From the NCBI RefSeq assembly GCF_016772315.1, contig NZ_CP053482.1:3901501-3965500 (forward strand): a DNA stretch of 64,000 bases, in the 5' to 3' direction. Within the stretch, counting starts at the first letter, position 1; every line of letters starts with the position of its first letter. The notes beneath the pieces were generated by a model. That model was not told the origin of the DNA and did not search any database. It saw only the letters and a program-made list of their open reading frames with translations. Of the stretch, positions 39,701-63,843 are shown piece after piece. This stretch comes from Thiothrix subterranea (GTDB lineage: Bacteria > Pseudomonadota > Gammaproteobacteria > Thiotrichales > Thiotrichaceae). The translations under genes and the position numbers were made by a program.

Positions 39701-40171
39701 TATAAGCATCAGCAAGAATACGGCGAAATTAGCCATTTGCCGACTTCGCTGTTCTTCTACGGTCTCAAGCTGAACGAGGAAGTGCTGGTTGATCTGGGGC
39801 GCGGTAAGGTACTGATTATTCGCTTGCTGTACCGTTCGCCGACGGATGAGAACGGTATGTGTGGCGTGACGTTTGACTTCAATGGGCAAATTCGTGCGAT
39901 GCAAATCCGCGATTTGTCCGTGAAGCCGACCCGTGCGACTAACCGCAAAGCGGTTGATCCGAATGAAGTCGGTACATCGTTGCAGGGCAAGCTCTCCGCC
40001 ATTATGGTTAAAGCGGGCGATGAGGTAGAGCAGAATGCGCCGCTGTTTGTGATTGAGGCGATGAAAATGGAAACCACGATTACTGCGCCAGAGGCGGGTA
40101 AGGTGAAAAAAGTTCACTTGCAGGCTGGGGAGCTGGTCGAGCAGGGTGATTTGGTCGTCGAATTCGAGTAA
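36728..40171 (+). CDS. pyc: pyruvate carboxylase
   Basis: This single-chain pyruvate carboxylase has 1147 residues and makes oxaloacetate from pyruvate, ATP and bicarbonate. The start at 36728 follows a GAAGG ribosome-binding site; a frame open back to 36653 encodes no family sequence. In order, it has a biotin carboxylase domain (about 1-455, with GGGGRGM and EVNPRVQVEHT), a carboxyltransferase TIM barrel (about 535-830, starting TDTTLRDAHQSLLATR), an allosteric/tetramer region, and a biotinyl domain ending the protein with EAMKMETTI. In an autotroph it would refill the TCA cycle. Confidence 0.95.
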   Translation: MTRSIKKLLVANRGEIAIRILRAAAELKLCTVSIYTYEDRFSPHRYKADEAYQIGKDDEPLKPYLDIEAIIETAKRHHVDAIHPGYGFLSENVRFAQRCREEGIIFVGPTPEAMQRLGDKVAAKENAITAGLPVIEDSREPLNTVDIARREADRIGYPLMLKAASGGGGRGMRVLRDPSQLEGAYNDARNEALKAFGDATVFLEKYIDSPKHIEIQILGDTHGNLVHLYERDCSVQRRFQKVVEVAPSTSLKDETRENLYKYALAITRHVDYSCAGTVEFLVDKDERIYFIEVNPRVQVEHTITEEITGIDIVRSQILIAGGARLDDPEIGIPNQESVDCNGYAVQCRITTEDPENGFKPDYGTIIAYRSSGGFGVRLDAGAAYPGAKVSPFFDSMLVKVTTWGRTLEGAANRNLRALQEFRIRGVKTNIGFLENVLQHEVFTTGKCAVTFIDNHPELFHTALRFDRGTKTLKFIGNVTVNGNPDVKYVDPNKHFRKPIIPDFDKLGAYPKGSKNLLDEMGAEKFCQWVKDQPNIFYTDTTLRDAHQSLLATRVRTDDMMKIAEGLAKNHPQLFSLELWGGATFDVAMRFLHECPWDRLKLLREAIPNILFQMLFRGSNAVGYTAYPDNVVEAFIEKSWENGIDVFRIFDSLNWIEGMRKSIQCVRERTGGIAEGTICYTGDVLNKDPSNKFNLQYYLDLAKQLEDAGAHMLAVKDMAGVLKPYAATTLITALKESVSIPIHLHTHDTASIQSATLLKAIEAGVDIVDGCMSSMSGLTSQVNLNSLIAAMEGQPREQPYNLKSLNAYANYWEDVREMYYPFESGLKAGTAEVYNHEIPGGQYSNLRPQAIALGLEHKFEEVKENYAVVNRMFGDIVKVTPSSKVVGDMAIYMTSNGLTEQDVMERGRTLAFPDSVIDLFKGGLGQVPGGFPKDLSDIILKGEKPYTGRPNDHLKPVDLDAAFEAFKQEFDPEQTFLDFLSFTMYPAVFREFYKHQQEYGEISHLPTSLFFYGLKLNEEVLVDLGRGKVLIIRLLYRSPTDENGMCGVTFDFNGQIRAMQIRDLSVKPTRATNRKAVDPNEVGTSLQGKLSAIMVKAGDEVEQNAPLFVIEAMKMETTITAPEAGKVKKVHLQAGELVEQGDLVVEFE

Positions 40172-40184
40172 CACTTGAACCAAG

Positions 40185-40203
40185 GGGGGATGTTTCATCC
40201 CCC
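40185..40203. terminator. hairpin between pyc and oppC
   Basis: GGGGGATG and CATCCCCC close on TTT. It lies between the convergent pyc and oppC ends and overlaps the oppC stop. The T-tract is short on both strands, so termination may be weak. Confidence 0.55.
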
Positions 40204-41034
40204 TTTCGGATCCAACGCATCCCGCAAGCCATCGCCCAAAAAATTAAGGCAGAACAACGTCACCGCCAAAAATCCGGCGGGAAATAATAACATCCACGGT
40301 GCAGTTTCCATTTGTGCTGCCCCTTCTGCAATCAACACGCCCCAACTGGTGAGCGGCTCTTGCACCCCTAAGCCTAAAAAGCTCAGAAATGATTCAAACA
40401 AGATCACTTGTGGCACGGTCAAAGTGGCATACACAATCACTGATCCCAAGGTATTGGGGACGATATGACGGCGAATAATCCCAAAATGACTCACGCCGCT
40501 GACCCGTGCAGCTTCCACAAAAGCGCGACCTTTCAAGGATAGCGCTTGCCCACGGACAATCCGCGCCATTGTCAGCCATTCCACCGCGCCAATTGCCACG
40601 AAGATCAGGAAAATGCTGCGTCCGAAATACACCATCAGCAAAATCACAAAAAACATAAAGGGCAGGGCATACAACACATCCACCAAGCGCATCATCAGCG
40701 CATCGGTGCGCCCACCCAAATACCCCGCCGTTGCCCCATACAAAACGCCGATAAGCAAACTGACCGAGGTTGCCGCCAAGCCCACCATTAGTGAAATCTG
40801 CCCGCCGATCAGGGTACGCACGAATAAATCCCGTCCATTCGCATCCGTTCCAAACCAGAAACCTTGCACGGCATCGGGCGGAATTCCCATGGCATCCCAA
40901 TAAATTTCATCGTAAGGGTGCGGGCTAAACAACGGCCCTAACACACACAAGACGGCAATCAGCAGCAAGACGATGGCGCTGCCGACCGCCATTTTGTTAC
41001 GCAACAAGCGATGCCATGCTTTGTGTTTAATCAT
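40195..41034 (-). CDS. oppC: ABC transporter permease, OppC type
   Basis: This is a 279-residue inner-membrane permease of the peptide/nickel family. A cytoplasmic N-terminus leads to helix 1 and a FWFGTDANGRDLFVRTLIGGQ loop typical of OppC/DppC. Five further helices follow, with the ATPase-docking EAARVSGVSHFGIIRRHIVPN loop. It overlaps oppB by eight bases. No substrate-binding protein or ATPase gene is adjacent. Confidence 0.85.
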   Translation of the reverse strand: MIKHKAWHRLLRNKMAVGSAIVLLLIAVLCVLGPLFSPHPYDEIYWDAMGIPPDAVQGFWFGTDANGRDLFVRTLIGGQISLMVGLAATSVSLLIGVLYGATAGYLGGRTDALMMRLVDVLYALPFMFFVILLMVYFGRSIFLIFVAIGAVEWLTMARIVRGQALSLKGRAFVEAARVSGVSHFGIIRRHIVPNTLGSVIVYATLTVPQVILFESFLSFLGLGVQEPLTSWGVLIAEGAAQMETAPWMLLFPAGFLAVTLFCLNFLGDGLRDALDPKGG

Positions 41035-41947
41035 AACGTACCCTCGGATCCATCCAGCCGTAGATCACATCCACCAGCAAATTCATCATAATAATCAACG
41101 CGCCGTAAAAGATAACCACGCCCATGACCAAGGTGTAATCCCGATTCAATGCCCCTTGCACAAAATGCCGCCCGATGCCCGGAATTCCGAAAATCTGCTC
41201 AATCACCACCGACCCGGTAATAATCGCCGCTGTCGCAGGCCCCAGCCAAGACAGCACCGGCAACAATGCCCCTTTCAACACATGCCGCCACACAATCAGG
41301 CGCATCGGTAAACCTTTCGCAACAGCGGTACGAATATGCGGGCTAGACAGCGTTTCCAGCACACTGGCACGCATTAACCGCGCTGCATACGCTATTTGTG
41401 GCAATGCCAGCGCAATTACCGGCAACACGGCTGATTTCCAGCCTTGATCCCAACCGGCTACCGGCAGCCAATGCAAAAATACCCCAAACACCAACGCCAA
41501 TAACGGTGCCATGACAAAATTGGGTATCGTAATACCCGTCATGGAAACCGCCATTACCGCGTGATCCAGCGGGCGGTTGTGATGCAACGCCGCCAACATT
41601 CCTGCCGGAATCCCAACCAACAAGGCGAGTAGCATGGCAAACACCCCCAATTGCAAAGACACCGGAAACCCTTCCGCAATCAAGCTGCTGACACTGTGAT
41701 CCTTGTACTTAAACGACGGCCCCAAATCCCCTTGCAACACATTGAGCAAGTAATACCCGTATTGCACCGGCAAAGGCTTATCCAAGTGGTAAGCACGTTC
41801 CATATTCGCCGCAATTTCCGGCGGCATGGGGCGTTCGGTATCAAATGGCCCGCCCGGTGCTAAACGGATTAAAAAGAACGCCAACGTGATGATCACCAGC
41901 AAGGTTGGCAGCGCACCTAGCAAGCGTTTAATGACATACTGCAACAT
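41027..41947 (-). CDS. oppB: ABC transporter permease, OppB type
   Basis: This 306-residue inner-membrane permease pairs with OppC. The N-terminal helix MLQYVIKRLLGALPTLLVI, the APGGPFD loop and the ATPase-docking region (RTAVAKGLPMRLIVWRHVLK) are standard for OppB/DppB. Downstream lies only oppC and upstream a divergent regulator, so the other transporter parts must be encoded elsewhere. The substrate cannot be told from sequence. Confidence 0.85.
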   Translation of the reverse strand: MLQYVIKRLLGALPTLLVIITLAFFLIRLAPGGPFDTERPMPPEIAANMERAYHLDKPLPVQYGYYLLNVLQGDLGPSFKYKDHSVSSLIAEGFPVSLQLGVFAMLLALLVGIPAGMLAALHHNRPLDHAVMAVSMTGITIPNFVMAPLLALVFGVFLHWLPVAGWDQGWKSAVLPVIALALPQIAYAARLMRASVLETLSSPHIRTAVAKGLPMRLIVWRHVLKGALLPVLSWLGPATAAIITGSVVIEQIFGIPGIGRHFVQGALNRDYTLVMGVVIFYGALIIMMNLLVDVIYGWMDPRVRYD

Positions 41948-42012
41948 ACAACCCTTATCTTTCTGAGATTTAACCGTGACAAAACCTTCAAAAGCTCCTA
42001 CACTTCAGTTTA

Positions 42013-56433: not shown

Positions 56434-56494
56434 ATGACGTTGGGCGGGTCAATGGGTTAATATGTTGGCTCTTTCATCACGGGCAACGCATGGC

Positions 56495-59143
56495 ATGAAT
56501 ATCGACACGCTGGAACAGAATCTACGCAAATTGGTGACAAACCCTGACCCTAACCAGTTTCTGTATGAGTTGTTACTGGTGTATGAGCAGCCGCGTGCGT
56601 CCATCACCCGTTTGCAAAAGGGCGATTACAACCTCGCCAAACGTGGCACGGATGTGTTGTGGAAGAAGAAAGTGTATTTCAGCCATGAACGCCATTTGGA
56701 TTTACACGCGCTGATTGATGCTATCCAGCAAGATACGGCGATTACGCGCCATGCGCCCCGATTCTTAATCGTGACCACTATGCAGCATCTGGTGGCGGTC
56801 GATACCAAAACGCAGGATACGCTGGATATTGAACTGGTGGATTTGCCCAAGCATTTCGATTTCTTTTTACCGTGGGCGGGGATGGAGAAACAGCAATTCC
56901 AAAGCGAAAATCCGGCGGATGTGAAAGCGGCGGAGCGCATGGGGCGGCTGTATGATTTGATCCATGTAGACAATAAGGGGTTTGATCGCCATGCCTTGAA
57001 TCTGTTTTTGTCGCGTTTGTTGTTTTGCTTTTTTGCGGAAGATACCGGCATTTTTGGCGACAACCAGTTTACCAATGCGGTGGGTTCGCATACGGCGGAC
57101 GATGGCAGCGATTTATCGAACTATTTGCAGAAATTGTTTCGGGTATTGGCGCTGCGGGAACGTGGCGATTTTCCAGCGTTTTTGCAGGCATTCCCGTATG
57201 TGAATGGCGGCTTGTTTGAGAAAGACTATCCTGTACCACAATTTAGCAGAAAATCGCGCAAGCTGATTCTGGAATGCGGGGCGTTGAATTGGAAGGCGAT
57301 TAATCCCGATATTTTCGGCTCAATGATTCAGGCGGTGGTGCATGATGAGCAGCGTAGCCATTTGGGAATGCACTATACCTCGGTGGTGAATATCATGAAG
57401 GTGATAGAGCCGCTGTTTTTGAATGAATTGGCGGAGGAATTGGGGAAGGCTGCGGGGAATGAGGGCAAGCTGGTTAAATTGCTGGATCGGCTGTATCACT
57501 TACGAATTTTTGATCCGGCGTGTGGGTCGGGGAATTTCCTGATCATTGCGTATAAGGAATTGTGCAAGCTGGAGATTGCGATTTTCCGCGAATTGCAGGC
57601 GTTGAATACCAAGTGGAAGACGGCAAAATCGGGTATCCGTTTGACGCAATTCTACGGGATCGAATTGGACGATTTCGCACACGAAACCGCCAAGCTCTCC
57701 CTGTGGTTGGCGGAACACCAAATGAACATGGCATTCCGCGAAGTGTTCGGCGATGCCAAGCCTACGCTACCGTTGCAAAGCGGCGGCAATATCGTCTGCG
57801 GCAACGCCACCCGCCTCAACTGGGAAACCGTCTGCCCCAAAGACCCCGCCCACGAAACCTACATCCTCGGCAACCCCCCCTACAAAGGTACTCGTAAACA
57901 GTCAGATCTTCAAAAAGAAGATATGTCTATTGCATTTAAAGGTTCAAGTAACTACAAAAATCTTGATTATATTGCATGTTGGTTTTTTTTAGGAGCTAAA
58001 TATATCAAGAATACCAATTATCAAATGGCATTCGTTTCTACAAACTCAATTAATCAAGGTCAACAGGTTGATATATTATGGACTCCAATTATAGCGATGA
58101 ATCTGGAGATTGGTTTTGCATATCAGTCATTTAAATGGATAAATAATGCAAAAGGGAATGCAGGTGTTACGTGCGTAATTATTGGCATTAGAAATAAAAT
58201 AAAGAAGCCAAAACGTCTTTTTAAAAATAATGCAATGGCTATCGCCAATAATATTAATGCTTATCTTGTCGATGGAAAAGATATATCTGTAAAAGCAAGA
58301 AAATTACCTGTTAAATCCATCCCAATAATGTTGGCAGGTAATTATACAGAGCACGCTCAAAATCTCATGATGAATGATGATGAGAAAGATTCATTGATAA
58401 AAAGAAATCCCGAAGCGGCTGGATTTGTAAAAAAACTCATAGGTTCGGATGAGTTAATTAAAGGATTAAGTAAATGGTGCTTATGGATAAGTAATGAAGA
58501 TAGAGCTTTCGCAGAGTCATTGCCCGATTTAAAAAAGCGAATAATTGCTGTTAAAAAAGCCAGAGAGAATAGTGCGGACAAGGAAATGGCGAAACTTATC
58601 GAGAGACCGCATCAGTTCAGAGATATAAATGAAACAAAAACGCAGAGTATTGTATTGCCTACTGTTTCATCAGAAAGAAGAGAATATTTGCCAATTATTT
58701 TTATAGATAATTCCACTGTCGTCACAAATAAAGCAATGGTTTTGTATGAAAGTGAGCCTTATATTTTTAGTTTTCTTTCATCAAGAATGCACATGGTTTG
58801 GGTGCGGACTGTTGGCGGACGAATGAGAGAAGATATTAGCTATTCATCAGTGCTTTGTTATAACACGTTTCCGTTTCCTGATATTTCGGCAAAGCAAAAA
58901 GAGAAGCTGGAAGATCACGTCTTCCGCGTCTTGGATGAGCGCGAAAAACACCCCGAAAAGACCATGGCGCAACTCTACGACCCCGACAAAATGCCCGAAG
59001 CCCTCCGCCAAGCCCACCACGACATGGACATCGCCATCGAGCAATGTTACCGCGCCAAACCCTTCACCACCGACGAAGAACGGCTGGAGTATTTGTTCAC
59101 GTTGTATGAGGCGATGATCGCCAAGGAGAAAGCGCGGGGATGA
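56495..59143 (+). CDS. MmeI-like adenine-specific DNA methyltransferase (type IIG/IIL-like)
   Basis: The protein has about 882 residues and the MmeI layout: N-terminal nuclease-like domain, helical spacer (LFCFFAEDTGIF, NGGLFEKDYPVP, INPDIFGSMIQ, HYTS), SAM motif FDPACGSGNFL (about 339), catalytic NPPY (about 460), target-recognition domain (about 465-800) and C-terminal helices. In the nuclease-like domain the Asp of GTDVLW aligns with the family, but the expected ExK reads ERH (FSHERHLDL), so cutting by this chain is doubtful. Bases 57893-58890 are much more AT-rich than both flanks. A start at 56462 is possible; neither has a clear ribosome-binding site. Confidence 0.85.
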   Translation: MNIDTLEQNLRKLVTNPDPNQFLYELLLVYEQPRASITRLQKGDYNLAKRGTDVLWKKKVYFSHERHLDLHALIDAIQQDTAITRHAPRFLIVTTMQHLVAVDTKTQDTLDIELVDLPKHFDFFLPWAGMEKQQFQSENPADVKAAERMGRLYDLIHVDNKGFDRHALNLFLSRLLFCFFAEDTGIFGDNQFTNAVGSHTADDGSDLSNYLQKLFRVLALRERGDFPAFLQAFPYVNGGLFEKDYPVPQFSRKSRKLILECGALNWKAINPDIFGSMIQAVVHDEQRSHLGMHYTSVVNIMKVIEPLFLNELAEELGKAAGNEGKLVKLLDRLYHLRIFDPACGSGNFLIIAYKELCKLEIAIFRELQALNTKWKTAKSGIRLTQFYGIELDDFAHETAKLSLWLAEHQMNMAFREVFGDAKPTLPLQSGGNIVCGNATRLNWETVCPKDPAHETYILGNPPYKGTRKQSDLQKEDMSIAFKGSSNYKNLDYIACWFFLGAKYIKNTNYQMAFVSTNSINQGQQVDILWTPIIAMNLEIGFAYQSFKWINNAKGNAGVTCVIIGIRNKIKKPKRLFKNNAMAIANNINAYLVDGKDISVKARKLPVKSIPIMLAGNYTEHAQNLMMNDDEKDSLIKRNPEAAGFVKKLIGSDELIKGLSKWCLWISNEDRAFAESLPDLKKRIIAVKKARENSADKEMAKLIERPHQFRDINETKTQSIVLPTVSSERREYLPIIFIDNSTVVTNKAMVLYESEPYIFSFLSSRMHMVWVRTVGGRMREDISYSSVLCYNTFPFPDISAKQKEKLEDHVFRVLDEREKHPEKTMAQLYDPDKMPEALRQAHHDMDIAIEQCYRAKPFTTDEERLEYLFTLYEAMIAKEKARG

Positions 59144-59194
59144 CATATAATGACGTAGAAGAGCCCCTCGCCCTTATTAGGAAATATTGATCTT

Positions 59195-59647
59195 ATGCCA
59201 CAAAGAGACGCTATCCACCAAACGGTAAGAGACGCGCTAGTAAAAGACGGTTGGGATGTAACCGATGACCCTTACGTTATATCCTACGGTGAGCGTTTCC
59301 TGTTCGTGGACTTAGGTGCATCCAGTGCACCGACCACAGGGCAATTTATTGGCGCACAGCGTCGTGATCAAAAAATCGCAGTCGAAATCAAGGATTTCCG
59401 TGGAAAATCCGCGATTAGCAACCTTGAACAAGCCATTGGGCAATACGTGTTGTATCAATTATTGCTCAAACAAGTTGACCCAAAAAGAAAGGTTTACTTG
59501 GCGATTACGCACCTTGCCTACGACGAAATATTCAGCGAACCCATCGGCGAATTAGTCGTGAATGAGTTACCGATGGATTTGATCGTGATCGACATCAACA
59601 CAGTGGAGGTAAAAAAATGGATACGCAAGACTACCGGACGGCGATAA
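59195..59647 (+). CDS. xisH: XisH-family endonuclease-fold protein
   Basis: This 150-residue protein matches XisH, first described as needed for excision of the fdxN element in heterocystous cyanobacteria. It has a PD-(D/E)XK-like core: an Asp in FVDLG, then IAVEIKDFRGKS, then LEQAIGQYVLYQLLL. xisI follows with 31 bases of overlap. No site-specific recombinase of the XisF type is nearby, so the excision role is not supported here. Confidence 0.88.
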   Translation: MPQRDAIHQTVRDALVKDGWDVTDDPYVISYGERFLFVDLGASSAPTTGQFIGAQRRDQKIAVEIKDFRGKSAISNLEQAIGQYVLYQLLLKQVDPKRKVYLAITHLAYDEIFSEPIGELVVNELPMDLIVIDINTVEVKKWIRKTTGRR

Positions 59648-59937
59648 AACATGTGATTGAAACGTATGCCAAGTTTCGCCCTTCTCACGGCAACATTCGC
59701 CTAGATGTACTGTTCGATGATACACACGACCGCTACGCCCTGATGCAAGTCGGCTGGGATCGCGGTAGACGAGTACGCGGCAACCTCATCTACATCACGT
59801 TGCAAGATGGCAAAGTTATCGTCGAATACGACGGTATCGAACACGGCATTACCGATGATTTGCTCCAATACGGTGTAGCCGAACAAGACATCGTGCTGGC
59901 ATTTATTGAGCAACCGAGCATGGCTGAAGCAGCATGA
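59617..59937 (+). CDS. xisI: XisI-family protein
   Basis: This 106-residue partner of XisH has the family blocks LDVLFDDTHDRYALMQVGWD, IYITLQDGKVIVEYDGIE and DDLLQYGV--QDIVLAF. GGAGG lies seven bases before the ATG, within the xisH end. XisH-XisI pairs are scattered through cyanobacteria and some sulfur bacteria and behave like mobile accessory pairs; their activity is unknown. The next gene starts in an ATGA overlap. Confidence 0.88.
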   Translation: MDTQDYRTAIKHVIETYAKFRPSHGNIRLDVLFDDTHDRYALMQVGWDRGRRVRGNLIYITLQDGKVIVEYDGIEHGITDDLLQYGVAEQDIVLAFIEQPSMAEAA

Positions 59938-60137
59938 AAGACGAATACGATTTTTCTAAAGGGGGGCGTGGTCAGTTTTTCCGCCCTGATGCCCGCCTGA
60001 ACATCCCTGTCTATTTAGATCAGGATGTAGAAACATGGTTTGCCGAGCGAGCCAAAGCCAAAGGTATCGACGTGCAGCAGTTGGTTAATGAATTGTTGCG
60101 CAAAGATATTTCCCTGATTCAGTCGGCGATGGGATAA
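59934..60137 (+). CDS. BrnA/CopG-like short protein
   Basis: This is a 67-residue protein. DEYDFSKGGRGQFFRPDA followed by LNIPVYLDQDV and a ribbon-helix-helix-like C-terminus resembles antitoxins of the CopG/BrnA type. A matching toxin gene is not adjacent. It is coupled to xisI by a four-base overlap, so it may belong to the XisHI unit. Confidence 0.65.
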   Translation: MKDEYDFSKGGRGQFFRPDARLNIPVYLDQDVETWFAERAKAKGIDVQQLVNELLRKDISLIQSAMG

Positions 60138-60184
60138 ACAATGATATGGCGAAAAAGACGATTGATCGTTAAAGGGCTTAGAAA

Positions 60185-62602
60185 ATGAAATGTTTAATGG
60201 TACGCCAACCCTGGGCAAGCCAAATTGCCGACGGCAGCAAAACCGTGGAAATCCGCAGTTGGCACTACACCCACCGTGGCGACTTGCTGATTGGTGCCAG
60301 CAAAAACATGGCGGGGCAACGGATGCGGGATGGCACGCTTTACCCCTCCGGTATGGCAATAGCGCACGTCAAGCTGGTGGATTGCGTTCCGTTTAATGCC
60401 AAATTGCACGGCAAAGCCGCAGGCTGTGACCGCGACACTGCGCAAGACTGCGAAGATTCCGGCGATTGGGCATGGATTCTGGCGGAAGCGCGTGCCATCG
60501 AACCTTTCGCCGTCAAAGGTCAGGTTAAGCCGTTTGAGGTCGATTATGGTGGAGACGCTGGAAGAGGAAGAGGGCGACCGCCGGTCGCCCCTACAGAATC
60601 CCCCCGTAGGGGCGACCGGCTGTCGCCCTCTTCGGTGGTTGCCCCCACCAATCTCGTCAACGTCACCTACGCTCAAACCGGCGATAGCATCGCGCTTGAC
60701 CGCATGGGAATGCGTGAAATGCAAGCCAAGGCGTTTCTGGCGCGTGACGCCCAATACCTGTTGCTGAAAGCCCCGCCTGCCTCTGGCAAATCCCGCGCCC
60801 TCATGTTTCTGGCACTGGATAAACTGTTCAATCAAGGCGTGCAGAAAGTGATTGTCGCCGTGCCGGAACGTTCCATCGGTGCCTCGTTTGCCAGCGCTCG
60901 CCTGAGCGCCCACGGGTTCTTTGCGGATTGGGAGGTGAATGACGCTTACAACCTGTGTACACCCGGTGGTGAGTCCAGCAAGGTCAAAGCTTTCGGCAAG
61001 TTTTTGGATGACACGGCGGCGACGATTTTGATTTGTACCCACGCTACCTTGCGTTTTGCCTTTGATGCGGTGGAAGAAAGCCGTTTTAACCGCGTGTTGC
61101 TGGCGATTGATGAATTTCACCATGTATCGGCGGATGCCGATAATCGCCTTGGTGAAGTGTTGCGCTCGGTGATGAGTCATACCACCGCGCATATTATCGC
61201 CATGACGGGTTCGTATTTCCGTGGGGATAGCGTGCCGGTGCTGCAAGCCGAAGATGAAGCCCGTTTCAGCAAAGTGACTTACAACTATTACGAGCAATTG
61301 AACGGTTATACCCACTTGAAAACGTTGGGGATTGGCTACCATTTTTATCAGGGGCGTTACCTGAGCGCGATTGCGCAGATTTTGGATACGGACAAGAAAA
61401 CCATTTTGCACATCCCCAATGTCAACGCGGGTGAGTCGACCAAGCAAAAACATGATGAGGTGAATTACATTCTTGATGCTATCGGTGAGGTGGAAAAGCA
61501 GGATTCCGCGACGGGGGTGTTATTCGTGCGCCGCAAAACCGATGGCAAGGTTATTAAAGTGGCGGATTTGGTGAACGATAATCCCAAAGACCGTGACAAG
61601 ATCGTCGCTTACCTGCGCACTCTCAATAGCCCCGATGATATGGATCTGATCATTGCATTGGGCATGGCGAAAGAAGGTTTCGACTGGCCTTTTTGCGAAC
61701 ACGCACTGACGGTGGGTTATCGCGGTTCGTTGACCGAAATCATTCAGATTATCGGGCGTGCTACCCGCGATAGCCCGAACAAAACCCATGCGCAATTTAC
61801 CAACCTGATTGCGCAGCCGGATGCAGCGGATGGCGAGGTGAAGCTTTCCGTCAATAATATGCTGAAAGCGATTACCGCCTCGCTGTTGATGGAACAAGTG
61901 CTTGCGCCTAATTTTAAATTCAAGACCAAGCACCCCGATGACACGCAAACCCCAGAAGTGGGGACTATCCACATTCGCGGTTTCAAAGAGCCGACCTCTA
62001 TGCGGGTAAAAGCGATTGTCGCGTCGGACTTGAACGATTTAAAGGCGAGTATTTTGCAAGACAGCACCTTGCTGAAAGTGCTACCAGGCGAGTTTATTGA
62101 CCCAGAAGTGATTAACAAGGTGCTGATTCCACGGGTTATTCGCACCAAATACCCCGATTTGAACGATGAACAGGTCGAGGAAGTGCGCCAGCACGTCGTG
62201 GCGGATTCCGCTATCAAAAACGGTGAAATCAAGGAGGTCGGCGATAAGAAGTTTGTGCGCATGGCGGGCAAATTCGTCAATATCGAAGATTTGCACATTG
62301 ATCTGATTGACCGCGTGAATCCGTTCCAGAAAGCGTTTGAAGTGTTATCCAAATCGGTAACGGCTTCCTTGCTCAAAGTGATTCAGGAAACCATTGATGC
62401 GGGGCGCATTCAGATGACCGATGAAGAGGCGGTGATTTTGTACCGTGATAGAATCGGTGCATTTATGCAGCAACACGGGCGTGAACCGCATATCAACGCT
62501 TCTGACCCGCTGGAAAAGCGCATGGCGGAAGCATTGGTGTATTTGCGCAATAAACGCCGCCAGCAACAAGCCCAACAAGCAGCACAGGCGAATCCGGCAT
62601 GA
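60185..62602 (+). CDS. ASCH domain fused to DEAD/DEAH-type helicase
   Basis: The 805-residue protein opens with an ASCH domain (about 1-122: MVRQPWASQIADGSKTVEIR). A linker (about 128-150) encoded by a palindromic repeat leads to an SF2 helicase. Walker A is APPASGKS (about 196-203), motif II AIDEFHH (about 307), and motif VI QIIGRATR (about 522). The last 240 residues are helical and end with a module AFMQQHGREP...LEKRMAEALVYLRNKR and a Gln/Ala tail. ASCH domains bind nucleic acid or modified bases. It overlaps the GIY-YIG gene by four bases, so the two surely act together. A restriction or defence role is inferred. Confidence 0.82.
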   Translation: MKCLMVRQPWASQIADGSKTVEIRSWHYTHRGDLLIGASKNMAGQRMRDGTLYPSGMAIAHVKLVDCVPFNAKLHGKAAGCDRDTAQDCEDSGDWAWILAEARAIEPFAVKGQVKPFEVDYGGDAGRGRGRPPVAPTESPRRGDRLSPSSVVAPTNLVNVTYAQTGDSIALDRMGMREMQAKAFLARDAQYLLLKAPPASGKSRALMFLALDKLFNQGVQKVIVAVPERSIGASFASARLSAHGFFADWEVNDAYNLCTPGGESSKVKAFGKFLDDTAATILICTHATLRFAFDAVEESRFNRVLLAIDEFHHVSADADNRLGEVLRSVMSHTTAHIIAMTGSYFRGDSVPVLQAEDEARFSKVTYNYYEQLNGYTHLKTLGIGYHFYQGRYLSAIAQILDTDKKTILHIPNVNAGESTKQKHDEVNYILDAIGEVEKQDSATGVLFVRRKTDGKVIKVADLVNDNPKDRDKIVAYLRTLNSPDDMDLIIALGMAKEGFDWPFCEHALTVGYRGSLTEIIQIIGRATRDSPNKTHAQFTNLIAQPDAADGEVKLSVNNMLKAITASLLMEQVLAPNFKFKTKHPDDTQTPEVGTIHIRGFKEPTSMRVKAIVASDLNDLKASILQDSTLLKVLPGEFIDPEVINKVLIPRVIRTKYPDLNDEQVEEVRQHVVADSAIKNGEIKEVGDKKFVRMAGKFVNIEDLHIDLIDRVNPFQKAFEVLSKSVTASLLKVIQETIDAGRIQMTDEEAVILYRDRIGAFMQQHGREPHINASDPLEKRMAEALVYLRNKRRQQQAQQAAQANPA
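60567..60633. repeat. palindromic repeat inserted in the helicase reading frame
   Basis: Two 28-base arms (60567-60594 and 60606-60633) are reverse complements with one mismatch around an 11-base loop. The element matches the style of intergenic GGGCGACCGG...CGCCCCTAC repeats but is translated in frame as an Arg/Gly/Pro/Ser-rich linker between the ASCH and helicase domains. Confidence 0.85.
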
Positions 62603-63843
62603 TTGACTTTGATAAGGAAATGCAAGCGATCCTGCACAATGATCCCTTGGGTTTGCTGAGTGTAACCGCCAAAGCCAGCAATAACGTTTCTACCGATGAA
62701 CGCTTGTTGGCAGCGTTTGAGGAAATCAATGCGTTTTTTGCACAACATGGGCGTGAGCCTGCCGCCAGTCGTGATATTCAAGAACGTAAACTCTATAGCC
62801 GTTTGCAAGGCTTACGTGCTGACCCCGAAAAAGCGCTTTCCTTGCAAAGCGTTGACCGTTTTGGTTTGTTGGCTGGGATTACGCTCCCTAATATGCCCAC
62901 CATTGAAACGGTCGCGGATGTTTTGGATGATCCGCTGGGTTTATTAGGGGGCGCATCCGCCGAGGAAACGGTTGCGGACAGTATTTTGCAATTGCAGCAT
63001 ATCAGCGTAATACCCCGCGCCAGCAGTGCGTATGTCGCCAAGCGTAAGCCGTGTAACCCGGCTGAGTTTGCGGCGTATGAAGCCGAGTTTAAGCAGGTAC
63101 ACCGCGAATTAGCCACAGGGAAACGCAAACTGTTGCCTTTCACGGATAAGGGCGAGCAATTGGTAGATGGCGCTTATTATGTGTTGGATGGCATTTTGCT
63201 CAAAATGGTGAACGTCCATTTCACTTCAACAGAAAAAACGGTGAATGGCAGGCGTTACCGCAAAGACGGGCGCACGTATTGCGTGTTTGAAAACGCTACG
63301 GAATCGAACATGCTCTACCGTTCCCTAGCGAAAGCGCTGTATCAAGAGGGTTATATCGTCACCGATACCGAAGCGGAAACGCACGCCCGTTTTAGAGCGG
63401 GCTTTGCCGGAGTCAGTGAAACCGGCACACAGACCGGGGTGATTTATGTGTTGCGTTCCTTGAGTAGCAATCCCGCTATTTTGGAATTGCCTTATTTGCA
63501 CAAAATTGGTTTTTCCAGTCAAGCCATTGCGCAGCGTCTGAAAAATGCAGTGCAAGAGCCAACCTATTTGCTGGCGGAAGTCGAGGTGATGGCGGAGTAC
63601 CAGACTTACGACCTGAATCCGCAAAAGCTGGAATGGCTCTTGCACACCCTGTTTGCCGAGGCTTGTTTGAATCTGGATATATTTGATGCGGCAGGGCAGC
63701 GGCATAGCCCACGCGAATGGTTTGTGGTGCCACTCAAGGTGATTGATCAAGCAGTTCGCTTATTGATGACGGAACAAATTGCGCATTACCAGTATGATAC
63801 GACCAAGCAGCGCTTGGTGTTGCGTCAATCTACAGCCCGGTGA
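62599..63843 (+). CDS. GIY-YIG nuclease-family protein
   Basis: The 414-residue protein carries a C-terminal GIY-YIG domain of the T5orf172/MUG113 type: GVIYVLRS (280-287), YLHKIGFS (299-306), Arg313 and Glu345. The N-terminal part has NAFFAQHGREP...ERKLYSRLQGLR (about 44-75), the same module found at the end of the helicase just upstream, then a helical region to about 150 and a middle domain. It overlaps the helicase stop in an ATGA. It is the likely DNA-cutting component of the locus. Confidence 0.8.
   Translation: MIDFDKEMQAILHNDPLGLLSVTAKASNNVSTDERLLAAFEEINAFFAQHGREPAASRDIQERKLYSRLQGLRADPEKALSLQSVDRFGLLAGITLPNMPTIETVADVLDDPLGLLGGASAEETVADSILQLQHISVIPRASSAYVAKRKPCNPAEFAAYEAEFKQVHRELATGKRKLLPFTDKGEQLVDGAYYVLDGILLKMVNVHFTSTEKTVNGRRYRKDGRTYCVFENATESNMLYRSLAKALYQEGYIVTDTEAETHARFRAGFAGVSETGTQTGVIYVLRSLSSNPAILELPYLHKIGFSSQAIAQRLKNAVQEPTYLLAEVEVMAEYQTYDLNPQKLEWLLHTLFAEACLNLDIFDAAGQRHSPREWFVVPLKVIDQAVRLLMTEQIAHYQYDTTKQRLVLRQSTAR

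Follow-up and report, generated by a model that had tools for sequence, protein, structure and literature searches.

The 64,000-nucleotide stretch of Thiothrix subterranea DNA analyzed here (the window; contig NZ_CP053482.1, positions 3,901,501 to 3,965,500 of the forward strand) comes from a genome of 4.08 Mb and contains, at window positions 56495 to 63843, six plus-strand genes with the DnmA-YeeB-YeeC trio as their core. All six open reading frames (ORFs) are open and follow one another at distances of 51, −31, −4, 47, and −4 bp, in agreement with the small gaps and overlaps described in a previous sequence-only reading of this DNA. The first gene (56495 to 59143) encodes a DnmA/YeeA-type, MmeI-like DNA methyltransferase without an N-terminal nuclease motif; its frame opens at 56462, and the start was placed at the ATG at 56495, where relatives begin with MN..E. 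The interval between methyltransferase and helicase (59144 to 60184), referred to as the cargo slot, holds xisH (59195 to 59647), xisI (59617 to 59937, overlapping xisH by 31 bp), and a gene for a small CopG-like protein (59934 to 60137). These are followed by a single ORF (60185 to 62602) in which an ASCH domain (60185 to 60568) precedes a YeeB-type superfamily 2 (SF2) helicase (60632 to 62602), and by the gene for a YeeC-type GIY-YIG (T5orf172) putative nuclease (62599 to 63843). Pfam families matched above their curated cutoffs were MmeI_N, MmeI_hel, MmeI_Mtase, MmeI_TRD (58271 to 58885), and MmeI_C in the methyltransferase, XisH (158 bits), XisI (101 bits), ASCH (31.6 bits), DEAD in YeeB, and T5orf172 and MUG113 in YeeC. 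The CopG-like protein, a possible antitoxin, scored 17.5 bits with CopG_antitoxin, below the cutoff of 28. Structure entries were matched by XisH (PDB 2okf, E = 2.8e-24), XisI (PDB 3d7q, E = 2.3e-18), and the ASCH domain (human ASC-1 ASCH chains, E ~4e-6).

The methyltransferase, helicase, and GIY-YIG genes are the already published DnmA-YeeB-YeeC trio. In Bacillus subtilis, dnmA (yeeA), a MmeI homolog without the endonuclease motif, is followed by yeeB (SF2 helicase) and yeeC (T5orf172/GIY-YIG), according to excerpts of PMC9973331 and PMC7261158, which also cite homologs from Vibrio crassostreae. The window likewise has an SF2 helicase gene followed directly by a T5orf172/GIY-YIG gene, on the same strand and 3' of the methyltransferase gene; it differs in its ASCH domain on YeeB and its XisH-XisI-CopG cargo. 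The likeness to B. subtilis is drawn from published descriptions of gene content and order. Among the control genomes, B. subtilis gave a MmeI_Mtase match, and in a Bacillus locus (L092) YeeB was matched at 61%. The same excerpts cite Makarova et al. (2011) for YeeB/YeeC in defense islands, and that of PMC7261158 cites Morgan et al. (2009) as having suggested a Type I-like system with cleavage in trans. The gene trio and the trans-cleavage hypothesis are thus already known. New here are the cargo slot and its families, the simultaneous exchange of the target-recognition domain (TRD) and cargo at one site, the ASCH-YeeB fusion, and XisH-XisI (XisHI) as cargo; in the open-licence literature searched, neither the slot nor the fusion nor a cargo role of XisHI was found in print.

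In a scan covering 84,980 species with one genome each, at least 533 YeeB relatives were confirmed, the best 80 of which were kept; five loci from an even class sample and the window's own bring the set to 86 loci. Choosing the best 80 over-represents the closest relatives, and an even phylum sample serves as a check. YeeB was present in 6 of 185 genomes of the class sample and 24 of 398 of the phylum sample (window's genome included in both). From the latter, 22 of the other 23 loci were fetched (G361 was left out); this sample is not wholly independent, as L176 is the same DNA as L093 (one probe per locus compared). In 84 of the 86 loci, no more than 300 bp separated the end of YeeB from the start of YeeC, the exceptions being L073 (contig end) and L075, where 443 bp lie between the two genes and the insert resembles, by eye, the 23S rRNA intervening-sequence-type gene of L028. 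A methyltransferase gene lay upstream on the same strand in 75 loci and downstream of YeeC in one (L044); it was not seen in the remaining 10, all lying less than 2.5 kb from a contig end on the upstream side. The phylum sample gave the same picture, with YeeC beside YeeB in 22/22 loci and the methyltransferase upstream in 21/22, the remaining one being cut by a contig end. A helicase-GIY-YIG pair occurring widely without a methyltransferase, which would have spoken against a joint system, was therefore not what we found. As the methyltransferase-helicase-nuclease order recurs across phyla, the arrangement is not due to chance. YeeB matches were also found in 263 plasmid records (in 153, the match spans at least 80% of the query; the two contexts inspected were the plain trio), and phage records gave two partial matches (24% of the query).

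The window methyltransferase matched MmeI (PDB 5hr4) with E = 1.6e-180 from residue 76 onward and, with a five-sequence profile, E = 1e-228. By kinship, DnmA of the window would be an N6-adenine methyltransferase. Both phmmer and the profile left the first ~80 residues unaligned to MmeI, and the place of the nuclease was set by solo MmeI-type enzymes, i.e., eight enzymes not linked to YeeB from the class sample and the window's own genome. Weaker MmeI_Mtase matches were left out of this set, as was a ninth solo enzyme (L148), whose ORF begins after the motif region, with none readable upstream in the contig. The stretches around six of the eight lacked YeeB and YeeC; for the other two, YeeB is absent from the whole genome. 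The D-x9-E-x-K motif (as in IDLFWKGTLLVEHKS) was present within the N-terminal 130 residues of 8/8 solo enzymes, compared with 0/67 at the nuclease place of YeeB-linked enzymes with at least 800 residues. The strict pattern did match two of the 67 (L025 and L074), near residue 100 and off the nuclease place, and a loose pattern matching 58/67 was discarded as uninformative. Judged by sequence, loss of the in-chain nuclease goes with the presence of the helicase-nuclease pair. The sequence-only reading had proposed that the methyltransferase lacks its own ExK motif and that cleavage comes in trans; the former is borne out against the solo enzymes as positive controls, and with the motif lost, cleavage would indeed need YeeB and YeeC in trans. 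As a hypothesis this proposal stands, with precedence belonging to the 2009 suggestion. A second MmeI-type enzyme in the same genome (L166:1128-3926; C1, ~1.94 Mb) keeps D-x9-ExK, and no YeeB or YeeC was found in the 6 kb read around it.

Judged by conserved residues, YeeB looks active, and YeeC may be so as well. In 81 aligned YeeB sequences, PPASGKS, DEFHH, MTGS-FRGD, and GR-TRD were invariant, as were Y283, K302, G304, R313, E345, and H349 of YeeC in 76 sequences; both sets were picked by length from the available sequences and cover several phyla. EcoR124I HsdR was among the many SF2 matches of the YeeB model. The C terminus of YeeB and the N terminus of YeeC (approximately 62432 to 62560 and 62707 to 62835) have in common a small helical module, detected by profile comparison with an HH probability of 93.7 (E = 1.9e-7, 33% identity over 43 columns), while nine control segments of YeeB reached at most 0.5. 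This module could possibly be a docking element between the two proteins.

Among the closest known systems, type IIL MmeI is a single-chain enzyme with methyltransferase, spacer, TRD, and C-terminal domains in common with the window protein, whereas the latter is without the N-terminal D-x9-ExK and has the helicase and GIY-YIG protein as separate genes. Type I (HsdRMS) systems with embedded PrrC, RhuM, or Fic genes (PMC3710099, in part) are alike in their ATP-driven motor (by kinship), TRD exchange, and guest families. They differ in having HsdS, for which no Methylase_S match was found in the six proteins at E ≤ 1, and the window locus has its motor and nuclease split over two proteins, with a nuclease of the GIY-YIG type. 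Neither BREX nor DISARM fits the locus: PglX models gave 15 to 28 bits against cutoffs of 400 to 900 with no PglZ/Brx partner among the six genes, and the DrmMI model gave the methyltransferase 147 bits versus 983 for Type IIG, with no DrmA, DrmB, or DrmC in the other five proteins. PADLOC v2.0.0, suggested as a check in the sequence-only reading, named the methyltransferase as Type IIG; YeeB matched PbeA at 30 bits and YeeC matched PDC-S57 at 19 bits, XisH, XisI, and the fourth gene were unmatched, and none of the models returned names YeeB, YeeC, or XisHI. The view that no named system has this gene set therefore holds for the six genes as such, but not for the three-gene core.

Comparison within the genus shows how the operon varies. 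YeeB was found in 6 of 16 genomes (the window's own and 15 others), and in four of these (the window's, G193, G187, and G189) the operon occupies one shared site, flanked by a SnoaL-like and a chalcone-isomerase-like gene. These two genes lie ~60 bp apart in G196 and G197, with no operon between them. The chalcone-isomerase-like gene was not found within 6 kb in G186 and G194, 1.2 kb separates the two genes in G191, and G198 was left out. At this one site, three cargos and four TRDs were found within near-constant gene bodies. The cargo is XisH-XisI-CopG in the window and G193, two AAA-ATPase_like/PDDEXK_9 genes in G187 (Pfam on one of the two), and a PIN plus a ribbon-helix-helix (RHH) gene in G189; G195, with its operon on another contig than the SnoaL-like gene, carries the same PIN and RHH cargo. 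The cargo exchange looks tight by eye: common sequence continues until 0 to 30 bp past the methyltransferase stop codon and resumes ~15 bp ahead of the first ASCH codon. In G189, a segment similar by eye to the beginning of the CopG-like gene is kept before ASCH, as if one cargo had replaced another. All six genes recur in G193, with XisH, XisI, CopG, and ASCH proteins 100% identical to those of the window.

The methyltransferase shows an independent exchange of its own. Outside the TRD it is 88 to 100% identical per 150-bp segment to those of G193, G187, and G189, while within positions 57845 to 58894 identity falls to 43 to 76% (one end segment, 88%); the three other genomes compared with one another show 50 to 76% (one end segment, 85%). 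In the window, the GC content of this zone, which encloses the Pfam MmeI_TRD domain, is 0.349, versus 0.501 before and 0.552 after it. Despite the TRD exchange, ASCH-YeeB remains 91 to 100% identical per 150-bp segment between the window and G193. As YeeB is constant across the TRD swap, the restriction part seems to be without a target specificity of its own, which favors the view that YeeB and YeeC would share specificity through DnmA. The sixth YeeB genome, G199 (L120:4080-8315), contains decayed ASCH-YeeB-YeeC in pieces with AAA-ATPase-like cargo of the G187 kind. No methyltransferase was detected in the 18 kb read, and the remnant lies 6 to 8 kb from the SnoaL-like and chalcone-isomerase-like genes; among the copies with long upstream sequence it alone lacks a detectable methyltransferase, and its YeeB and YeeC are fragmented.

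Across the loci read, methyltransferase and helicase genes lay 250 bp or more apart in 34 of 75 and closer together in 41 (the 10 loci without a methyltransferase at contig ends and L044, with its methyltransferase downstream, were not counted). The helicase-nuclease junction held an insert in only 1 of 85 loci (L073, at a contig end, left out; Fisher p = 9e-13). Likewise, genes were found in the slot of 8/21 phylum-sample loci versus 0/22 at the junction (p = 0.0014); the 273-bp gap of L182 has no operon-strand ORF and was excluded from cargo. The slots amount to 56,876 of 1,444,467 bases. In the 34 slots, 62 ORFs on the operon strand, each 66 residues or longer, formed 34 clusters, the biggest being AlbA_2 (12 ORFs in 11 loci), RhuM (11 ORFs in 11 loci), and a Fic type (5 loci), alongside many singletons. 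Guest ORFs in L049 and L087 and parts of L043, L194, and L195 are possibly spurious. Cargo was named from one representative per cluster. The Pfam scan covered 40 guest proteins, of which 27 stood for clusters or were singletons, 3 were genus cargos, and 10 belonged to the phylum sample; the window's three clusters were scanned separately, and four short or doubtful ones (L043, L049, L087) were left out. The families found were SLFN_AlbA_2, Virulence_RhuM, Fic, AAA_15/Old-like, FitA-like RHH plus PIN, DUF433 plus DUF5615, 23S_rRNA_IVP, Abi_C, KAP NTPase, HigB, IrrE-HTH, BRO-N, PDDEXK_3, PDDEXK_4, PDDEXK_9, AAA_13 (PrrC-like), and RelB plus YafQ. By our count, a cluster or family known or proposed as toxin, antitoxin, or defense is represented in 28 of the 34 slots, the remaining six being L008 (the window, with XisHI), L013, L040, L046, L049, and L087.

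Of 10 cargo proteins chosen as promising-looking and scanned with PADLOC, eight matched models, seven of them well (PDC-S05, PDC-S06, PDC-S26, and PDC-M59A, all phage defense candidates, as well as SoFic, Old, and AbiJ); an AlbA_2 protein gave a weaker pAgo-type match. In the same loci, the AlbA_2 profile found 12 ORFs in slots and 3 elsewhere, and the RhuM profile 11 and 1; three of these four outside ORFs directly precede YeeB where a contig ends and probably belong to slots as well. One of two Fic profiles found four ORFs outside slots (one of them likewise directly before YeeB, with the contig ending there) versus two inside, and that Fic type is therefore not confined to slots. Type I operons are known to carry guests, among them PrrC and proteins of the RhuM, Fic, and HEPN kinds (PMC3710099, PMC12707154), so the principle of embedded cargo is not new. 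No account of where and how widely it applies in DnmA-YeeB-YeeC operons was found in the open-licence literature searched. A survey of embedded defense genes by Payne and colleagues (2024) is reportedly connected with the PADLOC candidates.

The XisH and XisI families, known from the fdxN-element excision controlling factors (depositors' names; PDB 2okf and 2nvm) of heterocyst-forming bacteria, are adjacent in the window as they are there; in the window, however, the pair sits inside a restriction operon. XisH was found in 3 of 274 class genomes (window's included). XisI overlapped XisH in 5/5 XisH loci of the class sample, and the PD-(D/E)XK-like D, EIK, and Q residues were kept in 5/5 sequences (window's included). 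Because of the company of neighboring genes, a toxin-antitoxin or defense role of XisHI is suggested, nothing more. A bolder version, in which XisH is a PD-(D/E)XK nuclease held in check by XisI and acts as a swappable second-line weapon while the genus-specific ASCH domain senses modified bases or RNA for the motor, the operon thereby also answering phages with altered DNA, is speculative and rather unlikely. The genome also contains a second, diverged XisH-XisI pair (40 to 43% identical; L126:4253-4992).

The N-terminal ASCH domain was in frame on YeeB in 5/5 genus loci read. An ASCH profile built from four genus sequences matched 0/85 other loci and 0/22 phylum-sample loci, with limited sensitivity for remote ASCH domains; as far as this profile sees, the fusion is limited to the window's genus among the sampled loci. 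The ASCH-helicase of the sequence-only reading is thus confirmed for the window but, within reach of the profile, not for the helicases of the other loci sampled. ASCH relatives are predicted readers of modified bases, and one ASCH domain is fused to HsdS in Methanohalophilus (PMC7641849, in part); a role of the YeeB-fused domain as a sensor of modified DNA is plausible by analogy. Between ASCH and YeeB lies an in-frame copy of a dispersed palindromic repeat (60567 to 60633). Its core, GTAGGGGCGACCGG, had 73 genome matches with at most one mismatch, versus 3 for the reversed control. By eye, the palindrome or a variant occurs in 4/5 genus linkers, those of G189 and G195 having variants with different arm sequences. 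The repeat was considered as the cause of the ASCH-yeeB fusion and rejected, since G187 is fused without it. The YeeB of Porphyromonas somerae (L084:9527-9990) has a different N-terminal extension of ~150 residues, and YeeB may thus acquire varied front domains.

Taken together, we consider it likely (probability of about 0.68) that the locus is a DnmA-YeeB-YeeC restriction-modification operon, Type I-like in its working, with exchangeable cargo. In this model, DnmA would read a short asymmetric site via its TRD and methylate adenine on the host chromosome. On unmethylated DNA, the ATP-driven SF2 motor YeeB and the GIY-YIG nuclease YeeC would cut, with specificity supplied by DnmA in a Type I-like manner. 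The slot between dnmA and yeeB would be repeatedly refilled with toxin-antitoxin, abortive-infection, or stand-alone defense genes, which probably serve as a backup for cases in which the first defense fails, like PrrC inside EcoprrI; in the window this cargo is XisH-XisI with the CopG-like gene. The genus-specific ASCH domain may provide an additional check for modified bases or RNA. Gene content, recurrence, absence of the in-chain nuclease motif, conservation of motor and nuclease residues, and exchange of TRD and cargo are seen in the sequences themselves, whereas methylation, assembly of the proteins into a complex, cleavage, the guarding function of the cargo, and the function of ASCH are inferred.

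Several observations weigh against this model. To our knowledge, no biochemical cleavage has been reported for DnmA-YeeB-YeeC. Foldseek returned no whole-chain structural match for YeeC at E ≤ 0.001, and YeeC is less constant than YeeB (70 to 96% per segment versus G193), so that target or cargo could be linked to part of this variability. Promoter- and terminator-like sites in the locus were at chance level and so give no sign of co-transcription. As for the cargo, 13 of the 40 guest proteins scanned had no Pfam match at E ≤ 0.01, 2 of the 10 scanned with PADLOC were unmatched, XisHI was found in only 1 of 112 other YeeB loci (G193, by tblastn) and hence as cargo only in the window and that genome, and no restriction gene was found in the 9 kb read around the second XisHI pair. 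A further objection comes from B. subtilis, for which excerpts of PMC9973331 and PMC7261158 report that deletion of dnmA, yeeB, or yeeC left killing and plaquing by three phages unchanged, that dnmA was without effect on transformation, that no phage or plasmid restriction was found, and that phages do not avoid the DnmA site; the authors call the cluster a relic. If this applied to the window, DnmA would be an orphan regulatory methyltransferase and YeeB-YeeC would no longer restrict. The decayed copy in G199 is consistent with such a fate. In the window, however, all three genes are open, and the putative catalytic residues of YeeB and YeeC are invariant in the aligned sequences, drawn from several phyla. 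Furthermore, deletions of dnmA and yeeB in V. crassostreae increased sensitivity to some phages (study cited in PMC9973331, in part), and the turnover of TRD and cargo points to selection for novelty. We therefore regard a relic as unlikely.

The cargo bears on two further alternatives. The tight packing and overlaps of the six genes, the intact D/EIK/Q set of XisH, and the recurrence of the full set in G193 with identical XisH, XisI, CopG, and ASCH proteins would fit one machine in which XisH, as a PD-(D/E)XK protein, gives the methyltransferase-helicase complex a second nuclease, with dedicated subunits in XisI, CopG, and ASCH. However, at the shared chromosomal site XisHI-CopG is replaced by different genes in G187 and G189, the slot is shorter than 250 bp in 41/75 loci, and XisHI is nearly absent from other YeeB loci. 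A dedicated six-gene system, as the sequence-only reading had framed the locus, was accordingly rejected in favor of exchangeable XisH, XisI, and CopG-like genes, and the one-machine reading appears very improbable. It is also conceivable that the cargo consists of addiction or hitchhiking modules that stabilize the operon without a part in defense, which would be compatible with a restricting DnmA-YeeB-YeeC core. Plain toxin-antitoxin pairs do occur in slots (FitA-like RHH plus PIN and DUF433 plus DUF5615 in L019, HigB plus a helix-turn-helix gene in L043, RelB-YafQ in L186, and PIN plus RHH in G189), whereas most cargo proteins scanned with PADLOC matched defense models. Inserts are far more frequent in the slot than at the helicase-nuclease junction, although this bias alone cannot separate defense from hitchhiking. 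We give the addiction explanation a minor but appreciable chance.

The genes flanking the locus, assigned by eye from their ORFs, are SDR and SnoaL-like genes upstream and chalcone-isomerase-like, DUF3833-like, MFS, and CFA-synthase-like genes downstream. As these resemble housekeeping chromosomal genes, the locus looks like an accessory insertion. Elsewhere in the window, both GC skew and AT skew are sharply reversed at positions 40001 to 42000 relative to the remainder.

DnmA-YeeB-YeeC is common (24/398 phylum-sample genomes and 263 plasmid records) yet unnamed in PADLOC v2.0.0. Loci in which TRDs have been swapped naturally on a near-identical YeeB lend themselves to testing whether motor and nuclease depend on the methyltransferase for their target, and the cargo slot is a place to seek unknown antiphage genes. 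The presence of XisHI in this slot provides a functional hint for XisH-XisI outside heterocyst biology.

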